DNA of 64,000 nucleotides from Kaistia hirudinis (GTDB lineage Bacteria > Pseudomonadota > Alphaproteobacteria > Rhizobiales > Kaistiaceae): contig NZ_JACIDS010000001.1 of assembly GCF_014196455.1 (NCBI RefSeq), positions 806,001 to 870,000 on the forward strand, in the 5' to 3' direction. This document shows positions 22,405 through 47,787 of the stretch, in pieces. Within the stretch, counting starts at the first letter, position 1, and each line of letters begins with the position of its first letter. Under the pieces are notes generated by a model, which was given only the letters and a program-made list of their open reading frames with translations, was not told the origin of the DNA and made no database searches. A program made the position numbers and the translations under genes.

Positions 22405-23034
22405 TCAGCCGCTCAGTCCGCCCTCTTCCTTCCAGACCGAAAGCGGCTTGATGTCCGGCGGCTGCGCATTGGCGCGCACCCAGCTGTCGACCACCCAGAC
22501 CTCGCCCGTCGCCGTGTCGCGGATGGTCGCTGTGTGATGCGGATAGCGGCCATCGACGAGGAAGCCGCGCCGCTCGATCCGGCCGACGGTGTGATAGCGC
22601 AACCAGCCGCGGCTCGCGGCGAGCTTCAGCAGCGTGGTGGCGTTCTCCGCCTCATCGACGCAGTCGATCTCGGAGGGCGGCGTGAAGAGCTGGTAGACAT
22701 CCTTGGCGCCATCCGCCGAGGTTCCGGTCTGCGCGCCCGCGATGCGCTCGAACCACTGGTCAGCACGGCTGATCGCCGCCCGTTCGGCAGCGGCGCTCTT
22801 CGCCCCGCTGGCCAGGATGCGCTTCAACGTCTGCATGTCGGACGCGGAGAAGCGGACGAGCGAGCGCAGCGAACAGCCATAGCCATGGCAATAGCGCACC
22901 GTCGCCGGCGCGGCGCCCGATCGTTCGGCCGAGAAGGCGGGCGCGACGGGCGCGGCGCTCATCCCGGCAAAGGCGAGGGCCAACGCCAGACCCATGGCGC
23001 CCCCACGTCGCGACACGCGGCTTGTTGTCGTCAT
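22405..23034 (-). CDS. Secreted protein with a possible Cys-His-Asp (transglutaminase/papain-like) triad
   Basis: This 209-residue protein starts at the ATG at 23034, which has a GGGAGGAGG site just upstream; the frame to 23064 has no such site. Residues 1-36 form a signal peptide with an SRRGG motif before the hydrophobic core, so Sec or Tat export is possible. In order along the mature chain are Cys125 (IDCVDEAENATTLL), His166-167 (PHHTATIRD) and Asp183 (VWVVDSWV). This spacing and the helix-strand-strand context match the transglutaminase-like cysteine peptidase core. The enzyme class is inferred; the family is otherwise unknown to me. Confidence 0.65.
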   Translation of the reverse strand: MTTTSRVSRRGGAMGLALALAFAGMSAAPVAPAFSAERSGAAPATVRYCHGYGCSLRSLVRFSASDMQTLKRILASGAKSAAAERAAISRADQWFERIAGAQTGTSADGAKDVYQLFTPPSEIDCVDEAENATTLLKLAASRGWLRYHTVGRIERRGFLVDGRYPHHTATIRDTATGEVWVVDSWVRANAQPPDIKPLSVWKEEGGLSG

Positions 23035-23182
23035 GGCCTCCTCCCAGCCTTGATCAGGGATCATCCCCCTGCCGAGAGGGCCTCATTTTCGCCGCAGACG
23101 TCAATGTTGCGACGCACCAAATCGCAGTCCTGCCATGCTGCTCTGCATCAAGCGCATCGCTGCCATGCGATTTTTCGGTCTC

Positions 23183-23211
23183 CTCATGAAATGCCCCCTC
23201 TCCTATCTTCG
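23183..23211 (+). promoter_or_regulatory. Candidate heat-shock-type (RpoH) promoter of the DUF1127/cuckoo RNA unit
   Basis: The decamer CCTATCTTCG at 23202-23211 fits the alphaproteobacterial RpoH -10 pattern CYTATNTNNG at every fixed base. CTCATGAA at 23183-23190 resembles the CNCTTGAA -35, but with one mismatch and a spacer that is a few bases short. The R. sphaeroides relatives of this RNA are RpoH-controlled, which makes the match worth noting. The call is weak. Confidence 0.28.
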
Positions 23212-23283
23212 CATCATCAAGAGCGTTCGAAATCAGAAGAGCAGCCGCTCTTCTCCGGTTAGATAAGTTGAAGGAAGACGATC

Positions 23284-23436
23284 ATGGCCCTGAACCTCAT
23301 GGCTAACTACAAGAACTGGCGCAAGTACCGCGAGACGTACAACGAGCTGAGCCGCCTGACGGCTCGCGAGCTGAGCGACCTCGGCATCAACCGCGCCGAT
23401 ATCGGCCAGATTGCCAAGCAGTCGGCTGGTTACTAA
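23284..23436 (+). CDS. DUF1127 small protein (50 aa)
   Basis: The gene encodes 50 residues: a basic, aromatic N-terminal half (NYKNWRKYRETYNELSRLT) followed by the DUF1127 core ARELSDLGINRADIGQIAKQ. A ribosome-binding site AAGGAAG lies eight bases before the ATG. DUF1127 proteins are small, positively charged alphaproteobacterial proteins. Those studied affect phosphate and carbon metabolism in Agrobacterium, and the Rhodobacter sphaeroides member CcaF1 binds RNA and is encoded directly upstream of the CcsR small RNAs. Here too the gene is followed at once by three CCTCCTCCC stem-loops, which supports the same kind of protein/sRNA unit. Confidence 0.92.
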   Translation: MALNLMANYKNWRKYRETYNELSRLTARELSDLGINRADIGQIAKQSAGY

Positions 23437-23451
23437 GCGAATTCATATTCG

Positions 23452-23567
23452 CCCCGGACGAACCTCCTCCCTCGTCCCGGCGATCTGGCGGAAAGCGAAC
23501 CTCCTCCCTCGCTGACCGCCCCTTAAGAGAAACGCCCGTCGACCTCCTCCCCGACGGGCGTTTTTCT
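23452..23567 (+). ncRNA. CcsR/cuckoo-type small RNA with three anti-Shine-Dalgarno hairpin loops
   Basis: The 3' region of the DUF1127 transcript folds into three consecutive hairpins. Each presents the identical ten-base loop ACCTCCTCCC: stem GGACGA/TCGTCC at 23456-23477, stem AGCGA/TCGCT at 23494-23513 (extended by GCGG/CCGC across a small internal loop), and the long terminator stem at 23531-23562. CCUCCUCCC is complementary to the GGAGG ribosome-binding site and is the hallmark of the CcsR RNAs of Rhodobacter sphaeroides and the wider alphaproteobacterial cuckoo RNA family, which are processed from DUF1127 mRNAs. Three loops with the last used as terminator is the arrangement seen. Processing is inferred. 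Confidence 0.85.
23531..23567 (+). terminator. Rho-independent terminator formed by the third cuckoo hairpin
   Basis: The 11-bp perfect stem AACGCCCGTCG/CGACGGGCGTT (23531-23541 with 23552-23562) carries the CCTCCTCCC loop and is followed by a T-run (TTTTTCTTT, overlapping the stem end). It ends the DUF1127/sRNA transcript before trmFO. Confidence 0.92.
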
Positions 23568-23617
23568 TTGTCTGCGCATGGTTGCCGCCGCGCGGCACGC
23601 GCCATAATGTCCGCGCC

Positions 23618-25021
23618 ATGATGAAACCGATCCATATCGTCGGCGGCGGACTCGCCGGCTCCGAAGCTGCCTGGCAGATTGCGCGCCGCGGCGTTCCCGT
23701 CGTCCTGCATGAAATGCGCCCCGTGCGCGGGACCGAGGCGCACAAGACAGAGAGCCTCGCCGAGCTCGTCTGCTCCAATTCCTTCCGCTCCGATGATGCC
23801 GAGGCCAATGCCGTCGGCCTGCTGCATGCCGAGATGCGCATGGCGGATTCGCTGATCATGCGCATGGGCGACAGCCATCAGGTGCCGGCCGGCGGCGCGC
23901 TCGCCGTGGACCGCGACGGCTTCGCGGCGGCGGTGACGGCGGCGCTCGAAGCCCATCCGCTGGTTTCGATCGAGCGCGGCGAGGTTGCCGGCCTGCCGCC
24001 GGAAGAATGGGACAGCGTCATCGTCGCGACCGGCCCGCTGACCTCGGCGGCGCTCGCCGATTCGATCCGCGCGCTCACGGGCGAGGAATCGCTCGCCTTC
24101 TTCGACGCCATCGCGCCGATCGTGCATTTCGATTCGATCGATCGCTCGATCGCCTGGTTCCAGTCGCGCTACGACAAGCCGGGGCCGGGCGGCACGGGCG
24201 CCGACTATCTGAACTGCCCGATGACGGAGGCGGAATATAACGCCTTCGTCGATGCGCTGCTTGCCGGCGACAAGACCGAGTTCAAGGACTGGGAAGCCTC
24301 GACGCCCTATTTCGACGGCTGCCTGCCGATCGAGGTCATGGCGGAGCGCGGCCGCGAGACGCTGCGGCACGGGCCGATGAAGCCGGTCGGGCTCACCAAT
24401 CCGAACAATCCGACCGTCAAGGCCTATGCAATCGTCCAACTGCGCCAGGACAATGCGCTCGGCACGCTCTACAATATGGTCGGCTTCCAGACGAAGCTGA
24501 AATATGGCGCGCAGACCGCGATCTTCCGAATGATCCCGGGTCTGCAGAACGCTGAATTCGCCCGGCTCGGCGGCCTGCATCGCAACACCTTCCTGAACTC
24601 GCCGAAACTGCTCGATCCGTCGCTGCGCCTCAAGGCCATGCCGCGGCTGCGCTTCGCCGGCCAGATCACCGGCTGCGAGGGCTATGTCGAATCGGCCTCG
24701 GTCGGCCTGCTCGCCGGACGCTTCGCGGCGGCGGAACGGCTCGGCGAAGCGGTCTCGCTGCCACCGCCGACGACGGCTTTCGGCGCGCTGCTCGGCCATA
24801 TCACCGGCGGACACATCGTTGCCGAGGACGGGCCGACGCGCTCGTTCCAGCCGATGAACGTCAATTTCGGCCTGTTTCCGCCCATCGAGGTGCCGAAGGA
24901 GCCGGGCAAGCGGCTGCGCGGCGCCGAGAAGACGCTGGCCAAGAAGAAGGCCCTCACCGGCCGGGCGCGCGCCGATGCGGCCGCGTGGCTCGGGCTGCCG
25001 GTGGCCGAGGCCGCAGAATAG
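23618..25021 (+). CDS. trmFO: tRNA (uracil-5-)-methyltransferase TrmFO
   Basis: TrmFO makes ribothymidine at position 54 of tRNA with methylenetetrahydrofolate as carbon donor and FAD as reductant. The 467-residue protein begins with the FAD-binding motif [17 protein letters not shown]. It contains the family cysteines, one in [12 protein letters not shown] near residue 50 and one in the C-terminal [20 protein letters not shown]. The ATG at 23618 (or 23621) is chosen because the conserved N-terminus starts there; upstream in-frame sequence overlaps the cuckoo terminator region. It is preceded by the DUF1127/sRNA unit and appears to be transcribed separately. Confidence 0.96.
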
Positions 25022-46068: not shown

Positions 46069-47787
46069 ATGGCAAAGATCTCGAGGCAGCAATATTCGGA
46101 CCTCTATGGGCCGACGACGGGCGACAAGATCCGCCTCGGCGACACGGATCTCTACATCGAGATCGAGAAGGACCTGCGCGTCTATGGCGAAGAGGCCGTC
46201 TATGGCGGCGGCAAGACGCTGCGCGACGGCATGGGCTATGACAACGAGCTCACCAGCGCTGCCGGCGCGCCGGATCTGGTGATCACGAACGTCACCATCC
46301 TCGACGCGGTCCAGGGCGTCATCAAGGCCGATGTCGGCATCAAGAACGGCCTCGTCTGCGGCATCGGCAAGGCCGGCAACCCGTCGACCATGTCGGGCGT
46401 CACGCCGGGCCTCGCGCTCGGGCCGGGCACCGACGCCATCTCGGGCGAGCACCTGATCCTGACCGCGGGCGGCATCGACGCGCACGTCCACTACATCTCG
46501 CCCCAGCAGGCGCAGGCGGCGCTGTCGAACGGCATCACCACCGTGTTCGGCGGCGGCATCGGCCCGTCCGACGGCACCAACGGCACGACGATCACGCCGG
46601 GGACGTGGAACATCGAGATGATGCTCCGCTCCTTCGACGGCTGGCCGGTGAATGCCGGCGTGCTCGGCAAGGGCAATGGTTCGGCGCCGCTTCCGCTCGA
46701 AGAGCAGATCATTGCCGGCGCGGCGGGTCTCAAGATCCACGAGGACTGGGGCTCGACGCCGGGCGCGATCCGCAATGCGCTCACCGTCGCGGACAATTAC
46801 GACATCCAGGTCTGCATCCATACGGACACGCTGAACGAGGCGGGCTTCGTCGAGAACACGATTGCCGCCTTCGAAGGCCGGACGATCCACACCTACCACA
46901 CGGAAGGCGCCGGCGGCGGCCACGCCCCGGACATTATCCGCGTGGCAGGCCTCTCCAACGTCCTGCCGAGCTCGACCAATCCGACCCTGCCCTACGGGAT
47001 CAACTCGCAGGCCGAATTGTTCGACATGACGATGATCTGTCACAATCTCTCACCGAAGATCCCGACGGACGTCGCCTTCGCCGAGAGCCGCGTCCGTGCG
47101 GAGACGATCGCGGCGGAGAACGTGCTGCACGATCTCGGCGCGATCTCGATCCTCTCGAGCGACAGCCAGGCCATGGGCCGCATCGGCGAGAACTGGATGC
47201 GCACCATCCAGACGGCCGATCTGATGAAGCAGCGCGCGGGCGCCTATGCCGGCGATACCTCGGGCAACGACAACCAGCGCGTCCTGCGCTTCGTCGCCAA
47301 GGTGACGATCAATCCGGCGATCGCGCAGGGCGTCAGCCACGTGATCGGCTCGATCGAGGTCGGCAAGATGGCCGATCTGGTGCTCTGGGAGCCGGCCTTC
47401 TTCGGCGCCAAGCCGAAGATGATCATCAAGGGCGGCATGATCTCCTGGGCGCTGATGGGCGATCCGAACGCCTCGCTGCCGACCCCGCAGCCGGTCATGT
47501 ACCGGCCGATGTTCGCCGCGCAGGGCTCGGCTCTTGCCAAGACGCGCGTGACGTTCACCTCGCATGCCGCCTTCGAGGACGGCATCGTCGATCGCTACGA
47601 GCTGAAGTCCCAGGTCGTGCCGGTCTATGGCACGCGGACGGCCACCAAGGCATCGATGGTCCGAAATTCCGCGATGCCCCGGATCGAGGTCAATCCCGAG
47701 ACCTTCGCCGTCACCGTCGACGGCAAGCACGCCACGATCGAGCCGGCGAAGCGCGTGCCGCTGAGCCAGCTCTATTTCTTCAGCTGA
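46069..47787 (+). CDS. ureC: Urease alpha (catalytic) subunit
   Basis: UreC hydrolyses urea at a dinuclear nickel centre. The 572-residue protein has all metal ligands in place: H139 and H141 (DAHVH), carbamylated K222 (GLKIHEDWG), H251 (CIHTDTLNE), H277 ([15 protein letters not shown]) and D365 (SSDSQAMGR), each five above the Klebsiella numbers. The mobile flap keeps Cys324 and catalytic His325, but the next residue, His in the Klebsiella and Helicobacter enzymes, is Asn326 (MICHNLSP). It is 37 bases after ureB and 43 before the first crcB gene. Confidence 0.98.

Follow-up and report, generated by a model that had tools for sequence, protein, structure and literature searches.

A DUF1127 gene and an ar14 (cuckoo) RNA of Kaistia hirudinis as a probable single LsrB/VtlR-activated transcription unit

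Anatomy of the locus

The window, meaning the whole stretch of 64,000 nucleotides of Kaistia hirudinis DNA that was analysed, carries on its forward strand a short gene running from the ATG at 23284 to the TAA at 23434-23436, directly followed by three adjacent hairpins that belong to one RNA. The parts of the locus and of its surroundings are the following:

23037-23045, minus strand: GGGAGGAGG, 2 nt before an ATG of a divergent gene, a candidate target; complement of the fourth CCTCCTCCC
23144-23166, plus strand: LsrB/VtlR-type box TGCATCAAGCGCATCGCTGCCAT, made of TGCA-N6-GCAT (23144-23157) overlapping GCAT-N3-TG-N3-T (23154-23166)
23203-23208, plus strand: -10 element CTATCT, with the transcription start predicted at about 23216
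23272-23277, plus strand: likely ribosome-binding site AGGAAG, 5' of the DUF1127 start, read from the sequence
23284-23436, plus strand: DUF1127 small protein of 50 aa, by Pfam and pN/pS
23437-23451, plus strand: linker GCGAATTCATATTCG, a candidate processing site
23444-23566, plus strand: ar14 (cuckoo) RNA, by covariance model
23450-23482, plus strand: hairpin 1, loop motif CCTCCTCCC at 23463-23471
23487-23520, plus strand: hairpin 2, loop motif CCTCCTCCC at 23500-23508
23525-23568, plus strand: hairpin 3 and terminator, loop motif CCTCCTCCC at 23543-23551
23618-25021, plus strand: a gene that we take, from its 467-aa length, to be trmFO (Pfam GIDA, 327 bits; synteny), a conserved downstream neighbour outside the unit

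The 50-aa product matches the Pfam family DUF1127 (PF06568) with 57.4 bits, the cut-off being 23.3, and the sequence-only reading of this DNA, which had described a 50-residue DUF1127 gene followed by three hairpins, is borne out in this respect. Compared with its nearest orthologue (L155) over the last 46 codons, the gene has a pN of 0.056 and a pS of 0.231, indicating that it evolves as coding sequence; a mixed set of orthologue and paralogue pairs of moderate divergence, 774 in all, has a mean pS of 0.48 and a mean pN of 0.32, with pN below pS in 625 pairs.

The genome (5.26 Mb in 14 contigs) holds a second ar14 copy above the Rfam cut-off, at C8:56854 (82.1 bits, three loops), which likewise lies behind its own 50-aa DUF1127 gene. 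Three DUF1127 genes exceed the Pfam cut-off in this genome, and at the locus of the third, longer one neither a cluster of loop motifs nor an LsrB-type box was found. Three weaker ar14 matches at E≤1, far under the cut-off, score 34.9, 24.5 and 22.9 bits; two of these matches, L003 and L004, were rejected, being read as ordinary terminator regions. The 22.9-bit match (L005, 1501-1615), which lies between divergent genes and folds into three hairpins with a single CCTCCTCCC, could be a degenerate cuckoo RNA or a chance hit.

The ar14 RNA and its structure

Using the Rfam covariance model, a check that the sequence-only reading had itself proposed, the segment 23444-23566 is assigned to ar14 (RF02344) over model positions 1-123, with 73.7 bits against a gathering cut-off of 58.8 (E 2.1e-11). 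The earlier designation as a cuckoo/CcsR RNA stands for the cuckoo family but was imprecise beyond it, as the nearest relative over the Rfam cut-off is ar14/NfeR1, with three hairpins in one RNA. Each hairpin loop contains ACCTCCTCCC, adjacent hairpins each presenting an unpaired CCUCCUCCC, and hairpin 3 leads straight into the T-run TTTTTCTTT, so that identical loops, the third doubling as the terminator, had been rightly recognized. The motif CCTCCTCCC occurs four times in the window, always on the plus strand (23037, 23463, 23500 and 23543), where 0.74 copies are expected and none of 100 shuffles reached four; three of these copies are the hairpin loops and the fourth, at 23037, lies outside the DUF1127-RNA unit.

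The structure of the window copy was laid over an alignment (A1) of 31 distinct sequences from the family of the window (own-family sequences) that have at least three motifs. Pairing is found in 85.6% of the alignment cells, vs 38.6-52.4% when the structure is slid, and two-sided changes occur at 28 of the 37 pairs, a value as high being seen in 0/500 shuffles. Four of five measures gave an observed value reached by none of the 500 shuffles, the number of further pair types being reached by 4/500. Compensatory changes in the aligned sequences show that the RNA structure is under selection, as the stems vary with pairing retained while all three loops keep one motif. A gap-free, loop-anchored check was restricted to clusters having the exact motif three times, no more and no fewer; the distinct copies numbered 20 in the own family and, in other families, 46 unlinked and 16 linked, linked meaning that the RNA directly follows a DUF1127 gene. 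Of the 20 own-family copies, 17-20 are paired at each of six inner positions in hairpins 1 and 3 and at each of four in hairpin 2, the next two positions of hairpin 2 being paired in 12 and 4 copies. Among the unlinked other-family copies, hairpins 1 and 2 are paired in just 19-34 of 46 under the fixed geometry, which suggests that loop sizes there probably differ.

The hairpin loops resemble the 16S anti-Shine-Dalgarno sequence. It could then be thought that the hairpins merely end or stabilise the DUF1127 mRNA, or that they titrate ribosomes in general, since hairpin 3 is a terminator and the loops could bind many GGAGG sites. This is, nevertheless, very unlikely, considering that one motif is kept in all three loops while the stems change, that the RNA is also found without a DUF1127 gene and that NfeR1 is reported, in the available part of the source, to silence named mRNAs via its loop motifs (PMC10746234).

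Conservation, linkage and synteny

Of 28 genomes from the family to which the window belongs, 27 have an RF02344 match at E≤0.001, which exceeds the cut-off in 22; of 150 genomes sampled from the order and searched with stricter filters, 40 have one at E≤1e-4, 23 of them above the cut-off. Together with the 31-sequence alignment, the presence of the RNA in 27/28 family genomes bears out the point on which the sequence-only reading had staked its proposal, the conservation of the loops in relatives of this organism.

Among the 58 own-family loci, 49 have a DUF1127 stop immediately 5' of the RNA, namely 44 of the 47 with a cluster of at least two exact motifs and 5 of the 11 without one (L013, L015, L024, L026-L031, L167 and L181); as for the rest of these 11, the stop is 210 nt before the RNA in one, and none was found in five. 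Overall, an upstream DUF1127 gene was not found in 8/58 own-family loci. In most linked own-family loci, the stop is about 20-30 nt ahead of the first loop, the distance to the first loop motif being 27 nt at the window locus, and TTCG precedes hairpin 1 in 38 of the 39 own-family linkers listed. In a broader set of at least 120 stretches, to which chance hits outside Alphaproteobacteria and the second or further units of tandem arrays also belong, linked clusters are 38/136 among the matches listed.

The neighbourhood is also preserved: in all 27 own-family genomes that have an ar14 match, trmFO falls in the flanking sequence retrieved with it, and it shares the retrieved stretch with the RNA in at least 33 of 146 other loci, for which the flanks were short. 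The RNA exists without a DUF1127 gene directly in front as well, e.g., in L214, L215 and L218, from one family of the order, where a search of the locus at a threshold as loose as E 10 gave no DUF1127 frame; the three genomes have DUF1127 genes elsewhere. Consequently, the adjacent gene is not necessary for the RNA to occur.

The promoter region

Upstream of the gene, the box at 23144-23166 combines two published motifs. LsrB is reported to activate NfeR1 and to bind TGCA-N6-GCAT at -72 to -60 (PMC10746234, as far as the source was available), while for VtlR, which directly activates atu1667 of Agrobacterium, the box GCAT-N3-TG-N3-T has been proposed (PMC7486931, in part). At the window locus, the published box lies at about -72 to -60 of the predicted start, its position of about -72 being the value published for NfeR1 (PMC10746234, same portion). 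Among the 44 own-family promoters, 36 have the -10 element at an offset of 59 from the first position of the box. That ar14 RNAs share a conserved stretch in their promoters has already been published, according to the available portions of PMC10746234 and PMC7143759.

The motif TGCA-N6-GCAT, with at most one mismatch and within 450 nt upstream, is present in 41/44 linked own-family clusters and in 13.5% of shuffles, clusters with less than 300 nt upstream being omitted from the count. A composite box scoring at least 13/16 is found in 44 of 47 own-family clusters, 7/1830 shuffles and 4/166 distal stretches, although it was fitted to own-family loci, and the K and Y positions of the pattern used for genomes were picked after viewing the loci. 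On order-level loci outside the fit, which include relatives of fitted loci, the composite box is seen in 9 of the 12 clusters that are linked, in 10 of the 21 that are not and in 6/660 shuffles. Of the 98 unlinked clusters of the broader set, among the matches listed, 48 have no TGCA-N6-GCAT in the 450 nt upstream even when one mismatch is allowed, some of these 48 being later tandem-array members or chance hits outside Alphaproteobacteria.

In the 5.26 Mb of the genome, the widened pattern has two exact sites, one before the window locus and one before its paralogue, and with up to two mismatches it is at background (55 sites vs 51 in the control). Across 31 genomes, the exact box has 17 sites, with none in the reversed control, and 13 of the 14 own-family sites are at ar14 loci; it was not found in 7 of the 19 own-family genomes searched. 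Four of the 17 sites are away from own-family ar14 loci (L265, L266, L267 and L278): the one in L266 precedes an sRNA-like stretch, that in L267 the start of a gene and that in L278 nothing recognisable. In L265 (1501-2020), from an order-level relative, the exact box is followed by an AbcR-like RNA and then by a cuckoo RNA of 31.6 bits, under the cut-off. Of the three one-mismatch sites of the genome, the one in L237 was discarded, as an open frame of 484 codons on the opposite strand covers it. Behind the other two (L235 about 790-1060 and L236 about 510-840, both minus strand), there are frames of 51 and 72 aa with no Pfam match, which are possible regulon members.

The sequence-only reading had also pointed to a possible RpoH -10, probably CTATCT at 23203-23208, and this was not supported, no CTTG -35 being found with that element. 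A motif test covered 44 linked own-family promoters, 38 of which have a -10-like element; at the -35 distance, none of these 38 has TTG or CTTG and 37 have TGCTC or TGCAC, and a scan of 23050-23620 for the sigma-70 consensus gave no match. Thus, an RpoH promoter was rejected, as no -35 accompanies the -10; with the conserved LsrB/VtlR-type box and no TTG/CTTG at -35, the RpoH idea is unsupported, and the start is predicted at about 23216.

The candidate regulator

In this genome, a LysR gene stands in one row with trxB and with a gene that, judged by eye, is Lrp-like, and the LysR protein gives a full-length match of 431 bits to PDB 9HH1, which is LsrB of A. tumefaciens (PMC11975290); by this match and the trxB neighbour, the genome encodes an LsrB orthologue. 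About 180 nt behind the lsrB orthologue, a two-mismatch box lies ahead of an AbcR-like sequence with a terminator (L234, 235-460). This sequence has no Rfam match at E 0.5, and since two-mismatch boxes are at background, the box of this site rests on its location. This arrangement agrees with S. meliloti, where AbcR adjoins lsrB (PMC7143759, available part).

VtlR, the same regulator as LsrB, is reported to regulate positively three DUF1127 genes of Brucella (PMC12595884, in part), and atu1667 is orthologous to two small-protein genes that VtlR activates in B. abortus (PMC7486931, same portion). These genes share with the window locus a small-protein gene with a VtlR box, but in the portions of these sources at hand, they are treated as protein genes, with no mention of a cuckoo RNA behind them. 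AbcR sRNAs are similar in being LsrB/VtlR targets with CU-rich anti-Shine-Dalgarno stretches, but are another RNA family.

A probable single transcription unit and its alternatives

The arrangement of a DUF1127 gene and cuckoo hairpins is in print as the "CIN1 locus", and at the window locus a short DUF1127 gene lies directly 5' of cuckoo hairpins. We consider, with a probability of roughly three in four (0.77), that the locus is a cuckoo locus of CIN1 type forming one transcription unit, with an LsrB/VtlR-activated promoter, the DUF1127 gene and an ar14 sRNA of about 125 nt in its 3' UTR. Sequence itself establishes the pieces of this reading, i.e., the gene, the RNA, the selected structure, the conserved box, the LsrB orthologue in the genome and synteny. 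Judging from relatives, LsrB would bind the box and drive a single transcript that begins at about 23216 and ends at about 23571. An RNase, which in the Rhodobacter relative is RNase E, may then cut near the conserved TTCG linker and release the RNA. Each CCUCCUCCC loop would pair with GGAGG-type ribosome-binding sites of target mRNAs, blocking their translation, as reported for NfeR1, and the DUF1127 small protein presumably acts separately.

As the sequence-only reading had rightly seen, the position of the RNA behind a DUF1127 gene is that of CcaF1-CcsR1-4 in Rhodobacter sphaeroides, where a DUF1127 gene is followed by cuckoo hairpins with the terminator last. In that organism, the arrangement is driven by RpoHI/RpoHII (PMC10253847), and the CcsR RNAs are reported to derive from the ccaF1 3' UTR with RNase E (PMC8625941, in part). 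Besides these similarities, CcaF1 is longer, at 71 aa, and four CcsR RNAs come after it, under the control of RpoHI/RpoHII, whereas the window locus has a 50-aa protein, one three-hairpin RNA and an LsrB-type box, with no RpoH -35 seen in the motif test. An equivalent of CcaF1-CcsR, transcribed by a heat or oxidative stress sigma factor and with an RNA matured by the DUF1127 protein, is unlikely: the order of the parts is indeed the same (PMC10253847), the -10 CTATCT could fit several sigma factors and the listing of S. meliloti AbcR2 with RpoD and RpoH1/2 makes double control possible (PMC7143759, available part), but the -35 trinucleotide is missing from all 38 promoters counted above, and RNAs such as those of L214, L215 and L218 do without a DUF1127 gene in front, even though such genes exist elsewhere in their genomes. 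DUF1127 proteins have been described as RNA binders (CcaF1) and as PhoR partners, and CcaF1 can substitute for an Agrobacterium DUF1127 protein (both from portions of PMC12501420).

Compared with ar14/NfeR1 of Sinorhizobium meliloti, the window RNA has the same three CCUCCUCCC hairpins, model length of 123 and LsrB-type box at about -72, but NfeR1 is reportedly transcribed from a promoter of its own as a 123-nt RNA that does not depend on Hfq (PMC10746234, in the part available), while here the DUF1127 gene stands between promoter and RNA. By analogy with that report, the window RNA could be an independent sRNA with its own promoter within the DUF1127 gene, the two being mere neighbours. This seems quite improbable, as the boxes of linked own-family loci lie at least 291 nt before the first loop, i.e., 5' of the DUF1127 gene (41/44), and the short distance from the DUF1127 stop to the first loop is common to most of these loci.

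Linked and split states

The median distance from the box start to the first loop is 317.5 nt for the 44 own-family loci that are linked; among the listed loci, it is 354 nt for the 35 linked ones of other families and 86 nt for the 55 unlinked ones with a box of at least 13 (41 at 83-94 nt, the rest up to 418). The gap between linked and unlinked distances is about the length of the leader plus the DUF1127 frame. In L214, L215 and L218, the box is 120-124 nt before the RNA, which is then followed by trmFO. The trmFO neighbourhoods of Sinorhizobium (L067), Shinella (L060) and Endobacterium (L055) show a box and RNA, then a box and DUF1127 gene, and in Mesorhizobium (L056 and L099), a single box stands ahead of two DUF1127 genes and two RNAs.

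NfeR1-type RNAs and lone LsrB/VtlR-driven DUF1127 genes look like separated halves of one unit, the simplest reading of these distances and orders being that one unit was split and that both halves retained the promoter. Linked loci in Rhodobacterales with paired motifs like TGCA-N6-GCAT upstream suggest that linkage is the older state, from which we infer the direction of the change. A tentative proposal, given somewhat less than an even chance, is that an LsrB/VtlR-driven DUF1127-ar14 unit by trmFO was ancestral in Hyphomicrobiales, that NfeR1-type sRNAs arose through loss of the frame and lone VtlR-activated DUF1127 genes through loss of the RNA, the promoter being kept, and that LsrB would at first have controlled a single transcript serving as message and regulator alike.

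The locus links the LsrB/VtlR control of DUF1127 genes and of NfeR1 with CIN1 (CcaF1-CcsR) loci, and lends itself to telling the function of the DUF1127 protein apart from that of the RNA. If the reading is true, a single regulator drives a combined gene and sRNA unit, and the split forms show a stand-alone sRNA arising from an mRNA tail with its promoter kept. Within a partial coverage of the literature, no publication was found tying LsrB to CIN1 loci, and the novelty of the promoter link is uncertain.

Regarding the Rhodobacterales loci, L044, L061 and L110 have two TGCA-N6-GCAT motifs 40 nt apart, 5' of the DUF1127 gene. As LsrB is said to be confined to Rhizobiales, another regulator may bind these paired motifs.

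Candidate targets and minor observations

Sites of the form GGGAGGAGG-N2-9-ATG number 11 in the genome, with 0 in the reversed control, and include the divergent neighbour gene; three of the 11 precede frames of at most 47 aa. In the nearest orthologue (L155), the ATG of the divergent gene is preceded by CAGGAGGAG instead of the complete GGGAGGAGG. In the window, the divergent gene (22405-23034, minus strand) encodes 209 aa with no Pfam match at E 0.001, and it adjoins the locus in 11 of 58 own-family loci.

A lead on self-avoidance of GGAGG comes from the ribosome-binding sites of own-family DUF1127 genes, where GGAG/GAGG occurs in 1/42, the start sites of the control being unreliable. Elsewhere in the window, 46224-46519 on the minus strand matches Rfam RF02514 (5' ureB sRNA) with 63.1 bits vs a cut-off of 40, perhaps just as conserved ureB antisense.
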